Position numbers and translations under genes: made by a program
DNA from: a virus
Length of the DNA: 28,176 nt
Reading direction: 5' to 3' (one strand)
IMG/VR virus record: IMGVR_UViG_3300049617_000440
Span: 1 to 28,176 of that record
Part shown: positions 1 through 26,830 of the stretch, one piece after another
Position numbering within the stretch: position 1 is the stretch's first letter
Layout: every line of letters starts with the position of its first letter
The notes under the pieces: generated by a model
What the model saw: the letters and a program-made list of their open reading frames with translations, nothing else
Databases searched by the model: none
What the model was told of the DNA's origin: nothing

Positions 1-2028
1 TTATTGGGCGGGGAACAGGCCGGCATTGATCAGCCCTGCATTGACCACCGCCTGGTGCAGCGCCGCCGCCGGATGCACGCCGTCGGCACTGCCCGGCCCG
101 AGATCAACCCGCCATTTCCCTGAACCGCCAGGATCGGCAAAGACGCTATCCACGTCGATAAGGCCCGTGCAACCCAAAGCGGTGCGGCCAGCCGCCGTTC
201 TCAAAAACGCGTTATACGCCTCGCGTTGTGTCTCGACACCGGAGGCGGACACCGATTGGGTGCCTGTCAGCAGCGTGGTGCCAGAGGCGATGGCACCGGC
301 CAACGGTGCACTGAGCGTGATGACATTGGAAGCGAAGCCAGTGATCGTCGTGCCGGGTGCCACCGCTGTCCCGAACGTCACCGACACGTTGGCCGACGTC
401 GTGGCAGTGGTCGCCTTGCTCAATCCTATGACCGAACCCGCGACGCTGCTGACAATGGTGCCCGATGCAATCCCCGGCCCATAAACGGCCAACCCGGTGG
501 TCACGCCAGACGTGCTTGCCAGCGTCAATGACGTAGCCCCCGCGGCAGCAGTGACACTGACAATTTGCGCGGTCGGCGCCACATCAACGGCTTGTCCCAC
601 GGCTGGGGCGGTCGCCGGCGCAAGGATGGCAATCGTGCTCGCCCCCGCACTGGCGCCGCCGCTCGTGGTCTGGGTCGTCGCAGGGAACGCCTGATTCGCC
701 AACGTCGTCCAGCCATCTGTACTGTAGGTCGTAGGTGGAACCGAAAAGCACCACACGCGCTTTCCGGCACTGCCGTAACGGGCTGCAATGTTCGCCACAT
801 AGCCTTCCACCATGGCGGCCGTTGCGGAAAACTGCTGTATATCGTTGCGCCCCAATTCGACCAGCACATCGGTAATGCCAGTATCTACGGTCGCTGCGTA
901 CTGCCCGTCGCCGCGCGCCGCGAGCATCTGCGCCGTCTCCGAACCGCGCGCCGCAGTGATGAACGGCACGTTATTCTCAAGGCTGCGCTGGATGTAGCCT
1001 TGCAAATAGAGCCCATCGGCAACATCGCCGGTGCCCGCTCCTATGCTGTCTCCGAGCACAAGCACGGCCCCAGGCGCCGAGGCGCCAGGACTCGGAGTCA
1101 CCAGGCCAAGCACATACCAAGGGCACCAATACCCACCGCCGGTATTCGAACCGCTTGTCGGCGCCAACGTGAGATCGGTCAGCGTCGTGCCTCGCGTATC
1201 GAATTCGTCGTAGGTGATGCCATAAACCGTATTCGCAATAACCCGGCTGCCGGTGCCCGGGTAGTCCATAAGCATGATCCCGGGTGCCGAAAAGCTCGCC
1301 GCCGTGCGTATCCAGAACTGCCCACTTGCCGGAACCTGCACGGCGACCGGATCAGAGGTCGCCACGTCATGGCGCGGCGAAAGCACTAGGCTTCGCACGC
1401 CACCAAATGCAACCGGCGTGATCTGCCCCGCAAATGTAAACGATTGCCCACTCGTTGTATTGGCCGTTGTCGGCGCGCTGAGAGTGATGGTGACGCTGGT
1501 CACGGAGTTTGATGTACCGATCACGCGAGAGATGCCTGTAATGTAGTCGCCGCCCGGAATTCCTGTACCCGTGATCTGCTGCCCGATCGACAATGCGTTG
1601 GAATTAAAACTACCCCCGGCGAATTGCAGTGTTGACGATGGGAATGTCGTTGCAGCACTGGAAGCGATAGCAAACTGGTTGTTTGCCGGCTGAAAAATCG
1701 ACGCTGTCAGAGTTGCCGAAATCAACCGGTCTTCCTCGCCCTGTTGCAGAAGGTCAAAACCAGCATAGACGAGTTTCAGCGCAGTGACAGAACCCCATGA
1801 AGGACTGCTGCAAACGACTTGATCCATGATCGCCGTGTTGACAGAATCGGTGTAGGCTGCGGATCCGTTCACGCCGCGCCGCGAGCATATTGGTACCCAT
1901 AGCGCACGGCCGGAAAGCGACCGCAGAGATTTTTGCGGCGTTACGACCGAGGCATTTGCCGACAATGTCTTCAATGCCAACGCTGTTGCGACAAGCACTG
2001 CGACCGCCATCCTGCTGACTGAAGCCAT
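1..2028 (-). CDS. Secreted SGNH/GDSL-family hydrolase (probable polysaccharide deacetylase/esterase)
   Basis: A 675-aa protein. All four SGNH blocks are visible: GDSIG with Ser328, Gly362 in ARGSE, GRND with Asn395, and DGVH with Asp649/His652, so the enzyme should be active. Residues 1-27 look like a Sec signal peptide (MASVSRMAVAVLVATALALK, then ...SANA). Residues 30-315 are a beta-rich N-terminal region. About 145 residues rich in Ala/Ser/Thr/Val/Gly (451-597) are inserted between the Asn and His blocks; a similar G-x-x-I-x-G-T segment lies at 145-200. The ATG at 2028 was chosen because GGGAGGG lies just upstream, overlapping the stop region of the preceding gene. It is the last gene of the tailspike cluster, so the likely substrate is an acylated host surface polysaccharide; that substrate is inferred. 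The stop codon is at the very edge of the window. Confidence 0.85.
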   Translation of the reverse strand: MASVSRMAVAVLVATALALKTLSANASVVTPQKSLRSLSGRALWVPICSRRGVNGSAAYTDSVNTAIMDQVVCSSPSWGSVTALKLVYAGFDLLQQGEEDRLISATLTASIFQPANNQFAIASSAATTFPSSTLQFAGGSFNSNALSIGQQITGTGIPGGDYITGISRVIGTSNSVTSVTITLSAPTTANTTSGQSFTFAGQITPVAFGGVRSLVLSPRHDVATSDPVAVQVPASGQFWIRTAASFSAPGIMLMDYPGTGSRVIANTVYGITYDEFDTRGTTLTDLTLAPTSGSNTGGGYWCPWYVLGLVTPSPGASAPGAVLVLGDSIGAGTGDVADGLYLQGYIQRSLENNVPFITAARGSETAQMLAARGDGQYAATVDTGITDVLVELGRNDIQQFSATAAMVEGYVANIAARYGSAGKRVWCFSVPPTTYSTDGWTTLANQAFPATTQTTSGGASAGASTIAILAPATAPAVGQAVDVAPTAQIVSVTAAAGATSLTLASTSGVTTGLAVYGPGIASGTIVSSVAGSVIGLSKATTATTSANVSVTFGTAVAPGTTITGFASNVITLSAPLAGAIASGTTLLTGTQSVSASGVETQREAYNAFLRTAAGRTALGCTGLIDVDSVFADPGGSGKWRVDLGPGSADGVHPAAALHQAVVNAGLINAGLFPAQ

Positions 2029-2032
2029 CGCT

Positions 2033-2671
2033 CTAACCCTCCCAGGCCGAGACTGTAGCCGCCACCGGCGAGTACACCGTAATGGCACCACGATTTACAT
2101 ATTGCCCGCTTTCATAGAAAGTGCCGGCAGCGAAATAAGCACAATCAACGGCGTTCGGAGCGGCCACACCGCCGAGGAAATTGACCCAGATATAGCTGCC
2201 CTGTGGAACCTGCAACGCCAGGTAATGCCGGCTCGCATTGACCGGAAAGAGTGTGATGCTCTGCTGCGCCGCCACACTGAGCGAGCGCGACGTGGGAACG
2301 CCGCCAATCGGCACTGCTGAAATACCACCTCCTAGCACACTCCATACGCCCTTCAGCACGGCCGTCACCGATCCCGACCCGCCCGCATAAGGCGTATCGG
2401 CCGGCGTGCCGAGGGCCGTTGCCGAGGATTGCTCCGCCGCAATCTGACTCTGCTGATTGCTCGCCGTTGCAGACCCGCCGCCTCCCGTGCCGCCAGTCAC
2501 GACCAGCGGTGTCGTTGTTGTCCCGCACGGAACCACGACGTTGCCGCCGGTCTTGCAATGCAGGACCATCGCTGGCGCCCGCGTCACGCCATCCTGTAGA
2601 ACGTAGGGCGTGCCCGCAAAAACCTTTCCCGAAGACAGGATCAAAACCGCAGCGCATAAAACCCGCATCAT
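2033..2671 (-). CDS. Exported phage-type structural protein of unknown function
   Basis: A 212-aa protein with a clear N-terminal signal peptide (MMRVLCAAVLILSSG, then KVFA before GTP, a good signal peptidase I site). The middle is Gly/Thr/Ser-rich. The C-terminal half (about 140-212) resembles the beta-sandwich segment found in many phage structural proteins: 'ITLFPVNASRHYLALQVP', then 'YIWVNFLGG', then 'AITVYSPVAATVSAWEG'. Three Cys residues lie in the mature part. The ATG at 2671 has AGGGA 8 nt upstream; a second ATG follows directly. It ends 4 bp before the SGNH gene, so the two are probably co-transcribed and both enter the periplasm. A minor virion protein or a secreted accessory of the esterase are both possible. 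The function is not established. Confidence 0.65.
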   Translation of the reverse strand: MMRVLCAAVLILSSGKVFAGTPYVLQDGVTRAPAMVLHCKTGGNVVVPCGTTTTPLVVTGGTGGGGSATASNQQSQIAAEQSSATALGTPADTPYAGGSGSVTAVLKGVWSVLGGGISAVPIGGVPTSRSLSVAAQQSITLFPVNASRHYLALQVPQGSYIWVNFLGGVAAPNAVDCAYFAAGTFYESGQYVNRGAITVYSPVAATVSAWEG

Positions 2672-2735: not shown

Positions 2736-3161
2736 CTATCGCCGAGAGAAATGGTTCTCGACCAGCCAATGGTAGAAGGGTTCGGCAAGCCAGATCGCCA
2801 TGCTTCCAACAACCCCAATGCTGAAAACAACGCCGGCTATGCGCGACCTCAGCGCAGCGATCTCGGAAATCGGGCGCCTCAATGCCTGCACGGCATGAAC
2901 GAGATCGTCGACCGCGCGTGAGTTTTCCTTGGCATCGGCGCGAAGTGCCTCGAGATCGTGCTGCACGATGCATATCACGCAATCCAGCTTTTCCTCGAGG
3001 TCCCCATGATCGCTCCTAAGGCTTGAAAGATCGGAACGCAGGTATCCATGCAATTGCTCGCTCTGCTCCTGCCTGAGCCGTATGGTATCGCGGAGCGCAT
3101 CAATGCTGCTGATCACCTCTCCCATTTGCTGAAAGAGCACATGAAGATCAACATCTGTCAT
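2736..3161 (-). CDS. Coiled-coil protein with C-terminal transmembrane segment (DUF1515-like architecture)
   Basis: A 141-aa protein. Residues 1-100 are charged and heptad-like, with many Leu/Ile spaced between Arg, Glu and Asp, which suggests a coiled coil. One hydrophobic segment follows (IAGVVFSIGVVGSMAIWLA), then a short cytoplasmic or periplasmic tail ending in Arg-Arg. Small proteins of this layout (DUF1515-type and similar) are common in alphaproteobacterial prophages next to tail fibre or lysis genes. A holin-like or membrane-anchor role is possible but unproven. The ATG at 3161 is preferred over an upstream in-frame start because AAGGG sits 5 nt before it. The long untranslated gap upstream suggests a separate transcript or a processed message. 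Confidence 0.6.
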   Translation of the reverse strand: MTDVDLHVLFQQMGEVISSIDALRDTIRLRQEQSEQLHGYLRSDLSSLRSDHGDLEEKLDCVICIVQHDLEALRADAKENSRAVDDLVHAVQALRRPISEIAALRSRIAGVVFSIGVVGSMAIWLAEPFYHWLVENHFSRR

Positions 3162-3500
3162 AGTTGCCCTTTCCAATATCAAACGGAACCTGACAAAACA
3201 TTCTCTCCCGTACCCGCCACAAGAGGAAGTCCGTCCTGCCCACTTCTTGGAAGACGGCTATAGCGTTTCCAGCCTGACTGGAATGAAACAGCGGCGCTGA
3301 GAACGCTCTAGCTGCGTGTTTTGACGAGCAATTTTATCACCGGGCTGACATCATTCATGGTAATTTTTCTCTAGGAAGGCGAAGCCTCAAACCTCATGCA
3401 GTGACGCGCGCGTTCCGACCGGCGCCATCGCCATGGATCAGGGGTTCCTTGCTTCTTTTGTCCAAAAGCAGTCTTTCGCCCTGACCTCGCTTCCGATGTC
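3162..3500. other. Intergenic gap of 339 bp without a gene
   Basis: No credible coding region on either strand; the longest minus-strand start-to-stop stretch I see here is about 16 codons. The gap holds a palindromic repeat (see 3258-3311) and a small A/T-rich hairpin CTTTTG-GA-CAAAAG near 3455-3470 without a following T-run. No convincing -35/-10 pair was found for the downstream gene. Confidence 0.6.
3258..3311. repeat. Palindromic REP-like element
   Basis: The plus strand begins CTATAGCGTT and ends GAACGCTCTAG, so the two ends are near-perfect reverse complements. Inside is the perfect stem TTCCAG-CCTGA-CTGGAA, extended by GTTTC/GAAAC with a 2-nt bulge. It lies wholly in an intergenic gap. 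Similar palindromes are spread through many alphaproteobacterial genomes; only one copy is seen in this window, so its repeat status is inferred. Confidence 0.5.
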
Positions 3501-5768
3501 TCAGGCGATGCTCAAGACACCCCCATTATTCCACACCTGGTTCGACCCACTCGGCGGCTTCGATGTCGGCAGCCCCGGCGCGTAGAGTCCGCTTGAAGGT
3601 GAGAGCCACAAAGCGCCGCTTGGCTGAATACCAAGCCCCCCCGCATTCGTCGTCATCAGGCTAAGATTGCCCTGCGCCGCGTTCTGAAACTCAACCCAAT
3701 TAACCGCATTCGGTATGCTGACAAGGCTCAGCATGTTGCCGGAGCCGGCATTGCCGCCGGCAGCATTGATATAAAAATTCCCACCCTTGGTCTGGATCAC
3801 GCCCGCAACCGTCGCATCCGACCCATCGAAGCACAGAACCGGCGGGTTTGTTGTTGTCGCCGGTTGATGCCTGATGAAGTTCGCGGCGCCAGCCGTAGAA
3901 TTGATCCGAAAAAGGACGTTCCCCGCGCCGTTGGTAAAAAGATGATCCTTCGTCTTGGCCAAGCCAGCCGGTACGCCGGTAGCGGCCGGCGTTATGAAGG
4001 TGATATAGTTTGCGTTCTCCTGTGGCGTGTTGTCGATAACGGCCGTCGCTAGCGGTACATTTCCCAAATTAAGAGCGAAAGTCGTCAGGGCGACCGTTCC
4101 GTTACTGCCGGTGATCTCGATGACCGTCGCCATATTTTCGAAATGGCAAGCGCCGATCACGTTACCCGAGGAGTTCCAGGTACTCTGGAAGCCGAATGCG
4201 ACATCCTGTGAATTACCGCCCGATGGCCCACCAACAAAATTGCACCCCATGACGTGGAAATTGGAACAATTGGTCAAGTTGAAGAACGTCTGCGACGTGT
4301 TCGGCCCGCCATCACGCGTGATGTCGAGCCCGACAAAGAACCCGTCGGTTACGTTGGCGGCTTGTACCGTTCCAAGATTGGTGTTGACTTCGCCGTTCGC
4401 CACCCAAAGCCCCAGCAGCAAGGCCTTGTCAGCCTGGTAGCCAACCCAGGTCGTTTCATTCGTCTGTGCAAACAGATAGTCGACCCCTACCACAAGAGGG
4501 CTGGTCAGATAGATCCCTTCGCAGTAGCCGGTCTGCAGGACAACGGCATTGCCGTAATAGGCCTGAACGCCATGGATGCGCGTATCCACCGACCGATTCA
4601 GTTCAAAAACCGCTGACGTCGTCGCGCCAGCCACCGCCGGCGGCCCAAACCATGACACATTGTTGACCTGCGTGCTCCAGCAATTGTTGAGCACGAAGCC
4701 GCGCAAAAACGTTTGCGGAAATGGCGAAGTTCCATTTGCCGCATTCGGATAGCCAAAGCATTCAATCTCGTTAATCACGGCCGAAACATAGCCGAAGCCG
4801 CCGATGCTTGGGTAAGCAATCCGCGCCACGGCGGCCGTCTGGCCTGCGCTGCTCTCGGCATAAGCGGAAAAGTCATGCAGAACGACTTTGTCAAACACGT
4901 TCCCGGGTGCAAAGTCGAGTCCAATACCCGTATGCGCAAAATGCAGCCTGGTCTGTCCACGGCCGGCGCCACGGATCGTTACTCCTTTGCCGGCAAGCGC
5001 CAGAGAACTCTCAAACCAATAGTCGCCGGCGGGAACGAAAATCTCGCCAGTTCCACCAAGGCTGGCGAAAGCAGCGGCAAAGGCGCTCGTACAATCGGCG
5101 CCGCCGGTTATTGCGCCAAAGTCGAGCACATTGACCGTGTCAAGGGTCATCGCCCCCAGCGTCCGTGCCGGCGCCCCTGCCGCCACAGTGACTGTCGCCA
5201 GTGTGGCCGACCCTGCCAAGGGTGCAGTGACCTGCCCCTGGCTGTTCAATGCAGCGAAGCCGCCGCTCGGTATCTTGGCACTCAGTGCTGCGACTTCGGC
5301 CTGAGTGGTCGTCAGACCCGTTCCCAAAGTGCCCAATTGGCTCGTGACCGAGGGGTCAGTCGTCGCGGAGATGCTGCCGCTGGCGCTGATGCCCACGTTC
5401 GTACCGGCGCTGAACAGCCCGCGGAGCAGCGGCATCGCCAAGCGGCCCGGTGTGCCGGAAGCATTGACAATGACATCATCCGCCAGGCTAAGCGCCGGTT
5501 GAACGGCAAATCCCGCGTGGTCCCCGCCGTTCGCCAGCAACGACTCACTCTGCAGAGCGAGACCGGTCGATACGTAAACAGGTTCCGGCCCACCAGGTCC
5601 CAGCGAGACCCGACCCAACAAGGTTTGACTCGGAACTTCAATCGCCGGTTGCACTGTGGCCAGCAATTCCGAAATTGTCACCGAACGTGTAATGCCGGAC
5701 TGGCTCAGCGGTATTTCGTCCTGAGAGCCGGTACCGGTGGCCGGCGGAAGCTGTGGTATAGTCACCAT
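3501..5768 (-). CDS. Tailspike protein 2, right-handed beta-helix (pectate-lyase-like)
   Basis: A 755-aa protein. Residues 1-75 form an attachment module shared with the neighbouring tailspike (both contain DEI-x-LSQSGI-x-RS and TLLGR). A spacer rich in Ala/Gly/Thr follows. Near residue 212 is VLDFGAITGG with FVPAGDYWF downstream, the usual entrance to a pectate_lyase_3 beta-helix; residues 260-640 carry beta-helix-type N/G/V patterns. The C-terminus has the phage-fibre ending 'LPTSKPPSGSNQVWNNGG'. The ATG at 5768 is preferred over a TTG three codons upstream because GAGG lies 9 nt before it. Family knowledge suggests binding and cleavage of a surface polysaccharide. The catalytic residues cannot be assigned by eye. 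Confidence 0.82.
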   Translation of the reverse strand: MVTIPQLPPATGTGSQDEIPLSQSGITRSVTISELLATVQPAIEVPSQTLLGRVSLGPGGPEPVYVSTGLALQSESLLANGGDHAGFAVQPALSLADDVIVNASGTPGRLAMPLLRGLFSAGTNVGISASGSISATTDPSVTSQLGTLGTGLTTTQAEVAALSAKIPSGGFAALNSQGQVTAPLAGSATLATVTVAAGAPARTLGAMTLDTVNVLDFGAITGGADCTSAFAAAFASLGGTGEIFVPAGDYWFESSLALAGKGVTIRGAGRGQTRLHFAHTGIGLDFAPGNVFDKVVLHDFSAYAESSAGQTAAVARIAYPSIGGFGYVSAVINEIECFGYPNAANGTSPFPQTFLRGFVLNNCWSTQVNNVSWFGPPAVAGATTSAVFELNRSVDTRIHGVQAYYGNAVVLQTGYCEGIYLTSPLVVGVDYLFAQTNETTWVGYQADKALLLGLWVANGEVNTNLGTVQAANVTDGFFVGLDITRDGGPNTSQTFFNLTNCSNFHVMGCNFVGGPSGGNSQDVAFGFQSTWNSSGNVIGACHFENMATVIEITGSNGTVALTTFALNLGNVPLATAVIDNTPQENANYITFITPAATGVPAGLAKTKDHLFTNGAGNVLFRINSTAGAANFIRHQPATTTNPPVLCFDGSDATVAGVIQTKGGNFYINAAGGNAGSGNMLSLVSIPNAVNWVEFQNAAQGNLSLMTTNAGGLGIQPSGALWLSPSSGLYAPGLPTSKPPSGSNQVWNNGGVLSIA

Positions 5769-10955: not shown

Positions 10956-10990
10956 TTTCTTTTTTAAAAAAAGAGGCAAAAGACTTTTGC
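10956..10990. repeat. Family 1 A/T-rich repeat, single half-unit
   Basis: The plus strand has TTTCTTTTTTAAAAAAAG, then AGGCAAAAGACTTTTGC. It has the same plan as units at 17140, 23264 and 26725: a TTCTTTT/AAAAGAA palindrome followed by GC-A-rich CAAAA..CTTTTG. It lies in the 119-bp gap between gpJ and gpI. The structure could act as a weak terminator or mRNA processing site. Confidence 0.6.
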
Positions 10991-11043
10991 ATGATGGCAC
11001 TGAGCCGGCCGCGAGCCGAAGCGCAATGGACCGAGGTTTTTGG

Positions 11044-14239: not shown

Positions 14240-14919
14240 CAGCTTGCCTCCGATGCATTATTGATCGCCCGCCCCACATAGCCTTGCGCGCTTGTCAACT
14301 GTGCCAATGCGCCGGCAGCACTCACCAGACTCGCGAGATCGTTGGAGCCGAGACTAACCTCCGCGCTCGCAATGCTTCCCGTTATGGAGCTCTGTAAGCG
14401 TGCGAGACTATTGTTCGCCGCCGCTGCCGCCTGCGTACCCACCGTCAACGCTCCAGGGGCACTCGTGGCGGATGCCGCTGCCGAAACATCAATATAGCCC
14501 GAAGCAGTAACAAGATCCGAGGCGATAGCACTTGCTGCCGAGATGAAAATGTCTGCCCCAGCCTGCGCCTTATCCTGCAGCACCTTGCAGGTAATCTCGT
14601 AATAGATCCACCACGGGCTGCAATAGTCCAGCTTAAGTCTGCTGATGATCACGCTAAAAAAAAACTGATCCCAGCTGAGCGGCAGCAGCGCTCCCGCCGC
14701 GCGCATGGCGTCCAGCAGCTTCGCCCGGTCGCTCGCATCACCTCCCGACATTACGCCCGACCAGGCCAGGTCCGCGTCATCGCGTCCCATGGCATCGATT
14801 ATGCGCACGCCGCCGGGCAGCTTGTGCACTGCCAAGGCCTGCGCCCCGCCAAAACTCACCCGGCCGGGCACTTCAAAACCCTGGAGCGTCACCCCTCCAA
14901 GTTGCAGAACAACCATCAT
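14239..14919 (-). CDS. Tail/baseplate protein of DNA-circularization type (Mu gp43 / gpU-like position)
   Basis: A 226-aa protein. The N-terminus (LQLGGVTLQGFEVPGRVSFG, then HKLPGGVRIIDAMGRDDADL, then WSGVMSGGDASDRAKLLDAM) resembles proteins annotated as DNA circularization or gpU-like between tape measure and gpX. The rest (150-226) is Ala/Ser-rich and helical. The name is historical; a baseplate hub role is more likely (inference). The start overlaps the stop of the tape-measure candidate (ATGATG/TGA). The coding strand has nine consecutive T at 14656-14664, coding for Phe-Phe-Phe. Confidence 0.7.
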   Translation of the reverse strand: MMVVLQLGGVTLQGFEVPGRVSFGGAQALAVHKLPGGVRIIDAMGRDDADLAWSGVMSGGDASDRAKLLDAMRAAGALLPLSWDQFFFSVIISRLKLDYCSPWWIYYEITCKVLQDKAQAGADIFISAASAIASDLVTASGYIDVSAAASATSAPGALTVGTQAAAAANNSLARLQSSITGSIASAEVSLGSNDLASLVSAAGALAQLTSAQGYVGRAINNASEAS

Positions 14920-15908
14920 CCGCCCACCGTCGCTCCAGGCAGCAGCGCATTACGCCGCGGATCAAAGCCAGTCGGTCCGCCCGTCGCGCGACTTGCCTCC
15001 CTGCTCAGCAGTCGGGACATCCATCGGCCGACCAGAGCGCCATCGAGGAAAACATCGCCGTGCGTCGGCCCATGCGCAGTCTCTGCACTGCCCCGGCCAG
15101 GCCCGGGGCCTCCAGGATCGTCTGCTGCGGCGGCAGCCTGGTCCTGCCGCGATGTCTCCCTCAATGGCTCGGGCTCAAAAGCCGGCGCGCGAGGCCCTGC
15201 CCCAGTGTCGTGCGGCGTCGCCGACTTCTGCGCATTTCCCGCAAACCGCTCAGCACCGGCGAACGCAAAGGCCGGATCCCCATCCGGATGAACGCCCGAA
15301 CCCGTCGCGCCAAACACATCCAGCCGAACCTGAGGCTGCCGCCCCTCAACCGGTGGAGCAATCTGACCAGGCGCCGCCTGGGCCATCGCCTGCACATTTG
15401 CCGACGGCGCTGCAACGGACCGCTCTGGCAGTTGAGCAAAAGCACTCAGGTGGCCCGACGGCGCAATCGCGCTCGGTGTCAACTGGCCTGACGCCGCCGG
15501 CTTTCTGGCTTCCGTAACCCCCTCAGGGCCCAACACGACAATCGACCCCAAGACCGAACTTGGCACCGTAACCGCAGGAGCAATCGAAGGCGCCCTCGAA
15601 GGCGCCTCTGGCAACTCAACGGGCGAAACCGGCAAATCCGCAGCAGTCTGCACCCTCGGTTCTAAAGTGGCGGGCGCCCGCGCTTGAGTCGAAGCGGCTT
15701 CACCACCGATCCGGGAGCGCACCTGCGCCCCCGCAGACTGCGCCACTGTGAGCGCGGCCACACCCGCCTCCTGCAATCGCTGCACCGACGTGGCGCCCAC
15801 GCCCACCGCCCGTGTGACCGCCGCAACATCCCGCTGCGCCTTCGCAATGCCCTCCTCAACACCATCCTGCAGCGCCAACGAGATCCCGATCTGGAAAGCC
15901 TCGATCAC
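14916..15908 (-). CDS. Candidate short tape-measure / tail protein
   Basis: A 330-aa protein from GTG 15908, overlapping the preceding stop (GTGA). Residues 1-70 are helical (FQIGISLALQDGVEEGIAKA, then QRDVAAVTRAVGVG). Residues 75-280 are low-complexity and rich in Pro, Ala and Ser. The last 47 residues carry a conserved-looking end (GDVFLDGALVGRWMSRLLSR, then GPTGFDPRRNALLPG). It has the position of the tape measure, between the frameshifted chaperone and the gp43-like gene. Known tape measures are long and mostly helical, often with hydrophobic segments, so this is atypical. With the usual 0.15 nm per residue the tail would be about 50 nm. It may instead be a different tail protein, with the true tape measure absent. 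Confidence 0.5.
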   Translation of the reverse strand: MIEAFQIGISLALQDGVEEGIAKAQRDVAAVTRAVGVGATSVQRLQEAGVAALTVAQSAGAQVRSRIGGEAASTQARAPATLEPRVQTAADLPVSPVELPEAPSRAPSIAPAVTVPSSVLGSIVVLGPEGVTEARKPAASGQLTPSAIAPSGHLSAFAQLPERSVAAPSANVQAMAQAAPGQIAPPVEGRQPQVRLDVFGATGSGVHPDGDPAFAFAGAERFAGNAQKSATPHDTGAGPRAPAFEPEPLRETSRQDQAAAAADDPGGPGPGRGSAETAHGPTHGDVFLDGALVGRWMSRLLSREASRATGGPTGFDPRRNALLPGATVGG

Positions 15909-16180
15909 AGAACACGGCCTCCTAAAACTCTTGCCACTTCGGCAACCACTCGCCCAGCGTTATCGCGGCCAATCATTTCAAGAACCGCGCCCGGGGCACG
16001 GTGCCTCGTACCCACTTCCGCATCGCGCACCGCGGCCGACCGGCTCGCCACCATGATGCGTCCATCGCGAACGAACACACTGACATCTCCAGGGAAGCCT
16101 TGCGACGAGAGTCCGGTCCGCACCGCCTCCGCCAACATATCGCCCGCGGAGGCCAGTGCATCCATCAGGCTTTCTTCCAT
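15905..16180 (-). CDS. Small tail-region protein of unknown function
   Basis: A 91-aa protein that I do not recognise. It has an amphipathic N-terminal helix (MEESLMDALASAGDMLAEAV), then GFPGDVSVFVRDGRIMVASR, then a region ending RVVAEVARVLGGRVL. ATG 16180 overlaps the end of the frameshifted chaperone reading frame by 16 bp, and its stop overlaps the next GTG. The tight coupling on both sides supports a real gene. Further-upstream starts in this frame run through the chaperone extension and were not used. Confidence 0.65.
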   Translation of the reverse strand: MEESLMDALASAGDMLAEAVRTGLSSQGFPGDVSVFVRDGRIMVASRSAAVRDAEVGTRHRAPGAVLEMIGRDNAGRVVAEVARVLGGRVL

Positions 16181-16676
16181 CTCTGTTCCGTCCAATCGTA
16201 ATCGAGCCCATCGAACCGGCCCATGGCCACAATCCACGCCTGCCGCTCATCCACCGGCAGCGAGAACGCCACGTCGAACGGCACCCCGTTCCGAACCAGG
16301 TAGAGCGAATCAACCAGATCGGGGTGCCAACTCAGTTTCCCTGCCCGGCACTCCCCATGGCAGGAGCAGGCTCAGCAGCAAATCCGGCGGCTGCAGCAGC
16401 AATCCCGCTATCGCCCAGCCGCGAGACCAAAGCCTCGACCTGCGCTTCGGTCACCGGCGGCGGCACCGGAATACCGTCAATGCAGCAAACCGATGCAGCA
16501 AGCATGGCCATTCCGAGGTAGGGCGTATTCTGCGCCAACTGCGGCCCGACCGCCTTGAACAGCCGCAGCCGGTCAATCGCGGTCATGCGACGCAAGGACA
16601 ACTCGCGCCCCTCACTATCCCGAACCACGGTCTGCACCAGCGATGCCGCAATAATCCTGCTACTGGGCGTCTCCAT
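16165..16676 (-). CDS. Tail assembly chaperone, long -1 frameshift product
   Basis: About 170 aa: all 114 residues of the short form, then a -1 slip at GGGAAAC (16335-16341), then 56 residues ending at the TGA at 16165-16167. The extension (LSWHPDLVDSLYLVRNG, then VPFDVAFSLPVDERQAWIVA, then MGRFDGLDYDWTEQRWKKA) has no start codon of its own near its beginning, yet is a clean, aromatic-rich, protein-like sequence. Paired short and long chaperones are the rule between tube and tape measure in long-tailed phages (lambda G/GT, P2 E/E+E'). Frameshifting is inferred from the signal and not measured. Confidence 0.82.
16280..16356 (-). promoter_or_regulatory. -1 programmed ribosomal frameshift cassette
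   Basis: Read on the minus strand, the order is: SD-like GGGGAG (16356-16351); 9 nt; slippery heptamer G-GGA-AAC (16341-16335) in the correct X-XXY-YYZ phase, followed at once by the TGA stop; a 6-nt spacer; and a perfect 9-bp stem GGCACCCCG (16328-16320) with CGGGGTGCC (16288-16280), loop 31 nt. Every element is at the distance known to promote -1 shifting. Confidence 0.85.
16332..16676 (-). CDS. Tail assembly chaperone, short form (gpE / gp41-like)
   Basis: A 114-aa protein. The N-terminus (SSRIIAASLVQTVVRDSEGR, then ELSLRRMTAIDRLRLFKAVG) is typical of tail assembly chaperones; the middle has CCIDGIPVPPPVTEAQVEALVSRLGD, as in the gpE/gp41 type. It ends in an Ala-rich tail. Its ATG shares the A with the TAA of the tube gene (TAATG), so translation is coupled. 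The protein is expected to bind the tape measure before tube polymerisation. It is also read through as a longer form by frameshifting. Confidence 0.85.
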   Translation of the reverse strand: METPSSRIIAASLVQTVVRDSEGRELSLRRMTAIDRLRLFKAVGPQLAQNTPYLGMAMLAASVCCIDGIPVPPPVTEAQVEALVSRLGDSGIAAAAAGFAAEPAPAMGSAGQGN

Positions 16677-17104
16677 TACATGCGCTGCCTTTGGGTCGCA
16701 AAGAACTCGAGCTTCTGCTTTACGCTCGCATCACCCTTCCAGCTTCCGGCATTCACCAGCTTGAACACCACGTTGCTATACTGGTAGGTGGAAACCGATC
16801 CATCCACTTCCGTCACATATTGATAAACCGTGCCTGCCGGCAGCGAGCCCTGGCTCAAAAAAATCTGCTCGGAGGCGGCAATGAAATCGTCCACAGCGCT
16901 GGTCCCGCGCTCAACTTCAAAACTGCCTTCCCACCCTTTGGGAAGCTCAGCACCCATCGGAATCCCGTCCAGCCGATCCAGCCTGACCGACTGCGTAATC
17001 TGACGGCTTTCAAACCCTGTGACATACGTCAAATCGACGCGCCCCTGCGGCCCCATGACCACAAGCTGACAATCGCGCCCGATCGAAAATGAATTGACCG
17101 GCAT
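16676..17104 (-). CDS. Tail tube protein (gpFII / XkdM type)
   Basis: A 142-aa protein. MPVNSFSIGRDCQLVVMGPQ, then VDLTYVTGFESRQITQSVRL, then GWEGSFEVERG and a C-terminal 'WKGDASVKQKLEFFATQRQRM' are consistent with the short tail tube proteins next to sheath in Mu- and PBSX-like tails. The tube polymerises inside the sheath. ATG 17104 has AGAGG 7 nt upstream. It is separated from the sheath gene by a 241-bp gap with repeats, which is unusual because the two proteins are needed in equal amounts. Confidence 0.85.
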   Translation of the reverse strand: MPVNSFSIGRDCQLVVMGPQGRVDLTYVTGFESRQITQSVRLDRLDGIPMGAELPKGWEGSFEVERGTSAVDDFIAASEQIFLSQGSLPAGTVYQYVTEVDGSVSTYQYSNVVFKLVNAGSWKGDASVKQKLEFFATQRQRM

Positions 17105-17139: not shown

Positions 17140-17178
17140 CTTCTTCTTTGAGAAAAAGAAGCAAAAAACTTTTGAACT
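17140..17178. repeat. Family 1 A/T-rich repeat, single half-unit
   Basis: The plus strand has CTTCTTCTTTGAGAAAAAG, then AAGCAAAAAACTTTTGAACT. It matches the units at 10956, 23264 and 26725 in order and orientation. On the minus strand it is preceded by GCGCTTGGGC, similar to GCGCTTCGGC at the 10956 copy. A weaker related stretch (GAAAAAGAAGAGCTTTCTT) closes the same gap near 17329-17347. Confidence 0.6.
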
Positions 17179-17345: not shown

Positions 17346-18911
17346 TTAAGAAGACGGCAAGACCTGACTCTGAACGACCACCGTCTGCCCGCCCTGAACA
17401 TTCACGATGAATTTCTCATTGATCCCTTGGTACTGAACCTGCGCATCGCTCTGCACATAACCCAAACTCGTTTGGCTGAGCGGATTGTTGCTCAAATCAC
17501 AGATGACGCTGAACGGCGCCGACCCATCAATGCTGCCCAGGACCCCCTGACTCAACAACTGCTGCAAATAGCTCAACTGCGTTGACCTGATCTGTTGAAA
17601 CAGGCCTGCGTTGATCACCTGTCCGACAAACTGCCCCATGCCGGCCGCCAAGGTCGCCGCAATAAAGTTCGTCAGGCGGGTATAATTATCGCCGTTCGTC
17701 GCCTGATTTGAACTCGTATTATGCCCACACCGTACGCCCCAATAAGTACCACCGGGCTGCGGATTGGCAATCACATCGATCCCGCTTTCGAACAGTACCG
17801 TGAGATCGGCATCGCTATAGGTGGAGGTCTGGCCACTGCCAGGCACCCCCGACATCTGCGAACCGACCACGCTATACAAAGGCTTGTTCAAACCCGACTG
17901 CTCGGGAGACAGATTTCCGAGGCGTCCCGAAACAAAACCCTGCGGCGAGACAAGGCGTATCAACCCATTGGCCTGATCGTTCCAGTATATCCAGTCGCCG
18001 AACATCAGCTTTGCCGAATAGAAATCCAGGCCCGCCTGCTGTTTCGCGGTAACCGCATCACCGATCTTCTGTCCCTGAGGGCCAGTCAGGATCATGTAAA
18101 CACCCTCGGAGAGTCCGAACTCTGCCTGGGTAGTCCACTGTGTTGCGTCATCTGCGTCAGCCAGCATTCCAATGCTGCATCCCTGGCTCCTGAGGGCGTA
18201 CATGCCCTGTCGAGGTAACGTATCCTGGCCAACCAGTGTCGCCGCCGTCACCGCCGTTGCACCGTCGGTCCCGCCCGACAGCGTCTGACCGGAAAACGTC
18301 TTCACAGGAACGGTCGAGAGGCTACCAAGCGTCGCCACCACCAACTGCGATGGTCCACGCAGCGGCCCATTACCCTGGTTTACCGCGCTCACCAGATTAG
18401 CCCAGAATGCCGCGGAACTTGGCGCCGGAATATTGTCGAATACCTCGGGAACAAGGCCAGGCATGGCCACGGTCAACCGCCAGCATCCGGCCTGCGGCGC
18501 ACTGCCTATCGTCAGCATCACGCTGTTGCCGAGCGATCCTGTATAGAGCGCCGTCAACTGTGCCGCGAAAGCACCGGCAGCGAAACCGATTGCATAGCTC
18601 GCCGCAGTATCTGTGCCGTCGCTGACGCGCAGGCACCGGAAAGCCGTGGCACCTTGCTGCACTGCGCAGGCAACTGGCGTCCCCATGTCATATTTGCGTA
18701 CGATAACCGGCCCAAAATACCGCGCATAATCCGCCATCGACCCCACAATCACCGGCGTCCCCACGGGTCCCCACGAAGCCGTGCCGACTACGCCAATGAC
18801 ATTCGTGGGCACACCATTCAGCACCAGATTCTGCGGCGCCACGATCTGCACGTAAAGGTCGGGCACCACCAGCGCTGTTGTATTCAGCGCACCCTGCTGG
18901 AAGATCGGCAT
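17346..18911 (-). CDS. Contractile tail sheath protein
   Basis: A 521-aa protein. It has the sheath family start (PDLYVQIVAPQNLVLNG, then VIGVVGTASWGPVGTPVIVG), the middle 'YFGPVIVRKYDMGTPVACAV', and the C-terminal domain with TRLTNFIAATLAAGMGQFVG, then 'VNVQGGQTVVVQSQVLPSS'. Its length is normal. It is the outer contracting cylinder and its presence defines the element as myovirus-like. ATG 18911 has GGGAGA 8 nt upstream. It is followed by a 241-bp repeat-containing gap before the tube gene. Confidence 0.93.
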   Translation of the reverse strand: MPIFQQGALNTTALVVPDLYVQIVAPQNLVLNGVPTNVIGVVGTASWGPVGTPVIVGSMADYARYFGPVIVRKYDMGTPVACAVQQGATAFRCLRVSDGTDTAASYAIGFAAGAFAAQLTALYTGSLGNSVMLTIGSAPQAGCWRLTVAMPGLVPEVFDNIPAPSSAAFWANLVSAVNQGNGPLRGPSQLVVATLGSLSTVPVKTFSGQTLSGGTDGATAVTAATLVGQDTLPRQGMYALRSQGCSIGMLADADDATQWTTQAEFGLSEGVYMILTGPQGQKIGDAVTAKQQAGLDFYSAKLMFGDWIYWNDQANGLIRLVSPQGFVSGRLGNLSPEQSGLNKPLYSVVGSQMSGVPGSGQTSTYSDADLTVLFESGIDVIANPQPGGTYWGVRCGHNTSSNQATNGDNYTRLTNFIAATLAAGMGQFVGQVINAGLFQQIRSTQLSYLQQLLSQGVLGSIDGSAPFSVICDLSNNPLSQTSLGYVQSDAQVQYQGINEKFIVNVQGGQTVVVQSQVLPSS

Positions 18912-19789: not shown

Positions 19790-20725
19790 CTACAGGCAGT
19801 TATCATCTTCCCGTCGCGACCTGAGATACAGATCCCATTCGCGCTCCAGCTCCGGCTTGTTCCCCGACCATTCAAGCACGCCAAAACTGTTGCGCTTCAA
19901 ATCCGTGTCCGGGTCGAAGCCGTGTTTCACAAACATCTCCCAACGCCCCAGATAGCCGCGGTTCTGTTTGGCGCCATGAAACCGATGCTCGATGATTCCC
20001 GGCACCACGCCAAGCCGGCCGTTAACAAAGCGCCTGGCTCTCTCTTGCCAGCGCAGCAGATGCCGCTTGTAGGTGTCACTCGTCCCGCCTGGCCAACTCC
20101 TCTCGACCAGTCCCACGAATGCCAGAGCCATATGATGATCGGCGCTTCCCATGCCGGCGAGTTCAAACAGACCACCAACCCAGTCCAGAAGCTCACGCTT
20201 GCATGCCCAAAAATATCCGCTATGTGGATAGTCGCAATAGCCACCGTCGAACTTCCAAAAGTTCTTGCCAGCAGCGACGAGCGGTGCACCTTCCACATAT
20301 TGCGCCGCAAACGCGTGATGTACGCCGATCAGTGAATCGTTTGGACCGAGGTCGAGTGCCCGTGACCAAGTCTGCACCACCCGGTAATGCTGCAGATGCT
20401 CCACCGTCTCGCGCGCCCAGCCCGGCTTGCGGTGCCACACGTCCGAGTCGCCCCAGGCGATGTACTCCGCATCCGGAATACGTCGAATGCCCTCATTCAG
20501 CGCGTTTTCCTTGCACCACGCCCAACTGTCCGCCCGTAGCCCGACATGATTGACGTGCGGCAGCGCGCAGACAAACTCCCTCCTGCCGTACTGCACCTCA
20601 ACCACCGTCAGCTTTGCGCCCGAGTCGAGAACATGCTCGACCCAGTTGCGATAATGCCGATCCGGTGTTTCCCAGCGCAATGGGTTGAAACGCGCAGTCA
20701 CCACATGCAATTGTTCAGACCGCAA
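19790..20725 (-). CDS. GT-A-type glycosyltransferase-like protein
   Basis: A 311-aa protein from TTG 20725, with a strong GGGGAGA 8 nt upstream. The N-terminus (HVVTARFNPLRWETPDRHYR, then AKLTVVEVQYG) looks like a nucleotide-sugar binding fold. AWGDSDVWHRKPGW carries a DxD motif (Asp93, Asp95) for metal and nucleotide sugar. GYFWACKRELLDWVGGLFEL, then GMGSADHHMALAF (Asp196, His197, His198) is typical of the acceptor side in GalNAc-T-like enzymes. A conserved HRFHG follows (His247, His250). There is no signal peptide or membrane segment, so it is cytoplasmic. It lies between head-completion and tail genes. Likely targets are virion proteins, DNA or cell-surface precursors; which is not known. 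Confidence 0.75.
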   Translation of the reverse strand: MRSEQLHVVTARFNPLRWETPDRHYRNWVEHVLDSGAKLTVVEVQYGRREFVCALPHVNHVGLRADSWAWCKENALNEGIRRIPDAEYIAWGDSDVWHRKPGWARETVEHLQHYRVVQTWSRALDLGPNDSLIGVHHAFAAQYVEGAPLVAAGKNFWKFDGGYCDYPHSGYFWACKRELLDWVGGLFELAGMGSADHHMALAFVGLVERSWPGGTSDTYKRHLLRWQERARRFVNGRLGVVPGIIEHRFHGAKQNRGYLGRWEMFVKHGFDPDTDLKRNSFGVLEWSGNKPELEREWDLYLRSRREDDNCL

Positions 20726-23263: not shown

Positions 23264-23374
23264 GTTCTTTTCTGAAGCAAAGAACCAAAAGCGTTTTGAT
23301 TGTGTAAAGCGCACCGCGTGCCACAGCGTGGCTTCCCAAGATCAAAAGTCTTTTGCTTTTTTTCAAAAAAGAAG
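23264..23374. repeat. Family 1 A/T-rich repeats, inverted pair
   Basis: Two similar units in opposite orientation: GTTCTTTTCTGAAGCAAAG, then AACCAAAAGCGTTTTGAT (23264-23300), and ATCAAAAGTCTTTTGC, then TTTTTTTCAAAAAAGAAG (23341-23374). They flank 40 bp holding GCCAC-AGC-GTGGC. It lies in the 170-bp gap between scaffold and capsid, next to a GC palindrome (CCCCC..GGGGG) at 23221-23252. It has the form of a small non-coding repeat with inverted ends. Confidence 0.6.
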
Positions 23375-26724: not shown

Positions 26725-26830
26725 GTTCTTTTTAAAAAAAAGAACCAAAAAACTTTTCACAATTGTTGTCAGCGTAGCCGAAACGCATTCGCCCGGTCAG
26801 CAAAAGTTCTTGCTTCTTTTTTCAACAAGA
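26725..26830. repeat. Family 1 A/T-rich repeats, inverted pair
   Basis: The first unit is GTTCTTTTTAAAAAAAAG, then AACCAAAAAACTTTTCA (26725-26758). The second is AGCAAAAGTTCTTGC, then TTCTTTTTTCAACAAGA (26799-26830). They are roughly reverse complements and flank about 40 bp. It has the same plan as the pair at 23264. It fills most of the 315-bp gap between the terminase and the divergent lipoprotein gene; no other feature is seen there. Confidence 0.6.

Follow-up and report, generated by a model that had tools for sequence, protein, structure and literature searches.

A conserved cassette for programmed -1 frameshifting predicted in a putative phage tail assembly chaperone gene

In the virus record IMGVR_UViG_3300049617_000440 (28,176 nt; positions 1 to 28,176, the whole of which is called here the window) we found a minus-strand gene that, judging by its sequence, very probably gives rise to both a short and a long form of a putative tail assembly chaperone through programmed -1 slippage just before its stop codon. 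The signal, its conservation in relatives and the coding nature of both frames were observed directly. Systems of this kind (lambda G/GT-type programmed -1 frameshifting) are already known; new are the family, its strong comparative documentation, its almost exclusive reliance on AAC and its swapping of hairpins.

The 0-frame ORF (16332..16676, minus strand) encodes a short form of 114 aa, a putative analogue of lambda gpG, and ends with ...CAG GGA AAC TGA. Its last codons belong to a slippery heptamer, G_GGA_AAC (16335..16341), which is in the 0-frame phase and is directly followed on its 3' side by the stop codon TGA (16332..16334). An SD-like sequence GGGGAG (16351..16356), the proposed 5' stimulator, lies 9 nt upstream of the heptamer. 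Downstream, a 6-nt spacer TGAGTT (16329..16334) separates the heptamer from a perfectly paired 9-bp stem, GGCACCCCG/CGGGGTGCC, with its 5' arm at 16320..16328, its 3' arm at 16280..16288 and a loop of 31 nt. The -1 frame extension (16165..16334) consists of 56 codons and a stop ending at 16165 and would form a T-like domain; its first new codon is CTG, starting from the last heptamer base at 16335, its translation is LSWHPDLVDSLYLVRNGVPFDVAFSLPVDERQAWIVAMGRFDGLDYDWTEQRWKKA (56 aa), and the long form has 170 aa in all. Neither ATG nor TTG is present near the frame junction in the -1 frame, and the first ATG/GTG/TTG past the heptamer is GTG 16284, within the stem. Thus, the SD-like GGGGAG, the G-GGA-AAC heptamer, the 6-nt spacer, the 9-bp stem and the 56-codon -1 frame proposed by a sequence-only reading of this DNA were each recovered at the expected place.

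In-phase X_XXY_YYZ heptamers occur 29 times in the 8818 codons of the window's genes, and only one of them, G_GGA_AAC, is located less than 60 nt from its own stop. The 59 nt downstream of it fold with -24.8 kcal/mol, better than 199 of 200 dinucleotide shuffles (z -2.75). Compared with synonymous recodings the same fold is moderately exceptional only (z -1.5, with 13 of 200 recodings as good). What makes the case strong is the comparison with relatives.

Relatives were collected by protein search, that is, by selection on the protein sequence and not on the heptamer. They comprise viral contigs, two Komagataeibacter phages, 48 genome contigs (the majority from Acetobacteraceae assemblies) and plasmids found in Rhodovastum, Pantoea and Aquitalea. 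The counts include near-duplicate and related contigs and, since the relatives are phylogenetically correlated, do not represent independent events. With this in mind, 146 of the 147 relatives were found to have an X_XXA_AAN heptamer at the junction, with both reading frames kept. Four types were revealed (the window not counted): GGGAAAC in 126, AAAAAAC in 16, CCCAAAC in three and AAAAAAT in one, so that the first triplet varies (G, A or C) and the AAAC part hardly at all. AAAAAAC was also present in 75 of 77 further distant relatives; the other two are L159 and L206, the match of the latter spanning residues 1-71 only. Elsewhere in the relatives' ORFs, 0.2% of codons carry an in-phase heptamer, and none of these is XXXAAAC.

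The single exception among the 147 is the Rhodovastum plasmid RHOApd (positions 2992-3527 of entry L028, with L159 as a second record), which lacks an X_XXA_AAC sequence and contains, 25 nt upstream of its stop, an in-phase C_CCT_TTG, together with a recognisable extension. Loss of the heptamer with retention of both frames had been named earlier as an outcome that would refute the frameshift; as a rule, the relatives, near and distant, retain the heptamer. In the window, as in most relatives, the 0-frame TGA adjoins the heptamer; in 24 relatives it is located 3 or 18 nt further. It should be mentioned that in 22 entries (L010, L012, L044-L046 and others) the 0-frame stop lies 18 nt past the usual place; in those inspected the short form has six extra residues because the TGA inside GACCTGATC is used and not the one after AAC.

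Both frames were expected to be conserved if the cassette is real, and this was found: in the relatives, protein-level conservation of the -1 frame sets in with the codon that follows the heptamer and includes the motif (R/W/G)HPDLVD..Y/FLVRNGVPFDVAF...FDW...W. Third codon positions of the extension vary freely outside the stem, which together with the protein conservation excludes a pseudogene or a sequencing error. In the annotated records that were checked the gene is labelled 'hypothetical'; the extension is unannotated in L028, L029, L031 and L032 and appears as a separate hypothetical gene in L027 and L030.

Analysis of the downstream stem revealed several signs of selection on pairing. 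The stem is perfect in 104 of 119 distinct sequences, and four-fold sites within it (offsets 14, 20, 56 and 59 from the heptamer) show an entropy of 0-0.42 bits vs 0.63-1.84 outside. Among 34 diverse sequences 98.4% of cells pair and three pairs are changed on both sides; their covariation score was reached by none of 500 shuffles and by none of the slid versions of the stem. The compensatory changes predicted earlier were therefore detected, in both arms. When 50 representatives were compared with synonymous recodings, the mean z was -2.3 and 68% fell into the best 5%. The strongest sign of selection for pairing itself is a wholesale replacement: in a sub-branch (L019-L021, L023, L051) with an insertion at the extension start, an unrelated hairpin of about 11 bp takes the place of the stem at nearly equal spacing. 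The replacement hairpins of L023 and L051 show compensatory differences from each other.

The SD-like element has a narrower distribution. Pairing of the window's GGGGAG with the anti-SD amounts to -7.9 kcal/mol, and across the family the strongest pairing with the 16S anti-SD is seen for the 8-mer whose end lies 5-8 nt before the heptamer. In the window's branch Gly-Ser is encoded by GGG AGY in all 37 distinct sequences with that dipeptide (AGT in 33), while GGG accounts for 29% of the glycine codons and AGT for 8% of the serine codons in the same sequences. Outside the GGGAG branch the signal is no stronger than in synonymous recodings (52 of 500 as extreme). The synonymous constraint indicates that the element is real for the window and its own branch; a family-wide role is unsupported. 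We also considered a competing upstream hairpin (GGGG-AG-UGCC with GGCACCCC) as the cause of the constant GGGAG, and rejected it because the UGCC part varies (e.g., TACC, CACC, TGAC) while GGGAG is constant. In dnaX the SD-like element lies about 10 nt upstream of the heptamer. The earlier likening of the window's element to it is borne out as regards its presence, its distance of 9 nt and its constraint in the window's branch, but not as a general feature of the family.

Three other explanations were weighed against programmed slippage assisted by a selected stem. One accepts the frameshift but regards the stem as a by-product of the conserved protein (RHP and NGVP codons), the heptamer alone driving slippage. 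The window's own fold, which lies within the best 6.5% of synonymous recodings and is not extreme, would agree with this, as would L221-L222, in which the stem is apparently absent. However, four-fold sites are frozen only inside the stem, the arms carry compensatory changes and unrelated replacement hairpins stand at about the same spacing; taken together these require selection on pairing, and we consider a by-product very improbable. The frame change might also arise through transcriptional rather than ribosomal slippage, for which the six consecutive A residues in part of the family would be suitable. Yet the window and most relatives contain GGGAAAC or CCCAAAC, with homopolymers of at most three, and the conserved downstream stem and the SD-like element point to the ribosome, which leaves transcriptional slippage barely credible.

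It could further be supposed that the extension is a separate small gene, translated from an independent start (e.g., GTG 16284) or by re-initiation past the 0-frame stop. The records of phiKX2 and Pantoea Lij88 do carry a separate CDS starting inside the extension, and the GTG is constant in 110 sequences. Nevertheless, conservation of the -1 frame protein begins at the heptamer, upstream of GTG 16284, and a start at this codon would omit the first third of the conserved domain. Some relatives from acetic acid bacteria have ATT or ATA in place of the GTG, and Pantoea and Aquitalea have GTT, with the paired base changed too (C-G to A-U); in Pantoea, therefore, pairing persists without a start codon. 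A slippery heptamer would be superfluous for a separate gene, yet it hardly varies in the family, and this explanation appears very improbable to us.

The sequence-only reading had assigned the gene to the tail assembly chaperones, and this assignment is moderately supported by fold and gene order. The window protein (E 1e-20) and all 53 scanned relatives match phrog_20383, a family listed as of unknown function whose entry, as returned, notes no frameshift. Weak matches to chaperone families were obtained for 18 of the 53 members (phrog_508) and for four of them (phrog_344). A Pfam search gave no match for the window's chaperone and extension proteins and no chaperone-family match in the 53 relatives, and a PDB sequence search found no chaperone. 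The AlphaFold model of the 0-frame protein is of high confidence, with a pLDDT of 87.5. Its top PDB fold match is the HK97 tail assembly chaperone 2ob9, with TM 0.49/0.52, a probability of 0.63 and E 0.45, which is not significant by E-value; the viral fold matches include several annotated tail assembly chaperones. Each line of evidence alone is moderate, and a tail assembly chaperone is the best reading of the modeled fold together with the gene order.

The gene belongs to a contractile-tail cluster on the minus strand containing terminase, portal, scaffold, major head protein, sheath, a gene in the tube position, the putative chaperone gene and baseplate genes. It stands directly behind the genes for the tail sheath protein (17346..18911, minus strand; phrog_23 tail sheath, E 7e-44) and for a probable tail tube protein (16676..17104, minus strand), the latter directly upstream of it. 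The tube-position gene matches phrog_12993 (unknown function, E 2e-43) and probably encodes the tube protein, as suggested by its place after the sheath. On the other side, the gene at 14916..15908 (minus strand, 330 aa) is a candidate for the tape measure protein by position only, and no family match was found for its product by homology (Pfam, PHROG). In two relatives, Rhodovastum and phiKX2, a gene of 697-742 aa stands one gene after the extension; compared with it the 330-aa candidate would suggest a much shorter tail.

Under programmed -1 frameshifting the cassette could work as follows. Most ribosomes would read through GGA AAC to the TGA and terminate there, which gives the 114-aa short form (G-like). 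A smaller fraction would stall with GGA in the P site and AAC in the A site, the 9-bp hairpin holding the ribosome at the mRNA entrance and the pairing of GGGGAG with the 16S anti-SD pulling on it. The tRNAs would then slip back onto GGG AAA, and reading of 56 more codons would yield the 170-aa long form (GT-like). By analogy with lambda, the tape measure protein would be coated by the short form, and the C-terminal extension would recruit tube subunits. We infer the slippage itself, its efficiency and the mode of action of the chaperone from these features. The efficiency is probably a few percent; it could be low, since in E. coli slippage is weaker on A_AAC than on A_AAG (review PMC5009743).

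Long-tailed phages commonly produce G and GT by low-level -1 frameshifting (PMC5009743), and a frameshift of 6-7% was measured in an HK97-like chaperone cluster (PMC3711429). The window resembles the G/GT systems of lambda, HK97, P2 and Mu in the logic of gene position (after the probable tube gene and before the candidate tape measure region), in a predicted -1 shift shortly before the short ORF ends and in the predicted short and C-terminally extended products. It differs from them in that its family has no detectable Pfam family and that it possesses a conserved hairpin and, in its own branch, the SD-like element. The lambda slippery heptamer is G_GGA_AAG; the window's heptamer is lambda-like, but its A-site codon is AAC instead of AAG.

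GGGAAAC and AAAAAAC sites were predicted earlier in Burkholderia phages, Caulobacter phages and haloarchaeal viruses (PMC5009743, PMC3483164, PMC3556154). As in the window, GGGAAAC was predicted in the pre-tape-measure gene of Burkholderia phage KL1 (gp18/gp19) and of Caulobacter phage Colossus, and AAAAAAC, as in part of the window's family, in that of Caulobacter phiCbK; in KL1 it also stands directly before TGA and is accompanied by a possible stem-loop (PMC3483164, PMC3556154). Published descriptions place KL1 among the siphoviruses and call phiCbK a siphophage, a difference from the window, and the likeness lies in the predicted sites. The sites of KL1, phiCbK and Colossus are single predictions, whereas the family of the window has comparative support.

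The order of elements is the same as in E. coli dnaX: SD-like element, X_XXY_YYZ heptamer and downstream hairpin. SD stimulators are frequent in many IS elements, and the three-element layout resembles both dnaX and IS elements. A downstream hairpin of the dnaX type, at the usual spacing of 5-9 nt from the heptamer, is present in the window (6-nt spacer, 9-bp stem, covariation). In contrast, the dnaX-type A_AAA_AAG heptamer with a truncated product, at which about 50% of ribosomes shift (PMC5009743), is absent; the window has G_GGA_AAC, and the shift would lead to a longer product and is presumably rare.

It can tentatively be proposed, with somewhat less than even confidence, that the family relies on an A-site AAC (once AAU) and almost never on AAG, and compensates for this by a near-invariant hairpin and, in some branches, by an SD-like stimulator; the hairpin being exchangeable, selection would hold the frameshift rate and not a particular RNA. 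Through these data phrog_20383, listed as unknown, gains a putative function and a predicted second product. More than 200 natural variants of the heptamer, spacer, hairpin and SD-like element form a comparative set for studying how phages tune the frameshift ratio and are also useful for testing AAC slippage in bacteria.

Several other features of the window deserve mention. An Rfam search of the window gave no match, and ARAGORN detected no tRNA in it. A putative GDSL lipase/acylhydrolase domain (PF13472, E 6e-9) is encoded at 1-2091 (minus strand) in a probable tail-associated protein. Within the structural cluster, a 311-aa gene (19790-20725, minus strand) has no Pfam match, and its WGDSDVW sequence hints at a putative glycosyltransferase-like protein. 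Finally, a dispersed AT-rich element (AAGAAGCAAAARACTTTT and its inverse) is located mostly in intergenic gaps (10962-10995, 17147-17173, 23271-23297, 23343-23370 and 26731-26757), with six matches in the window vs 0.25 expected. Exact copies of its core were found in nine of 235 fetched loci, the window's own locus being one of the nine; it is perhaps a terminator or a mobile repeat.
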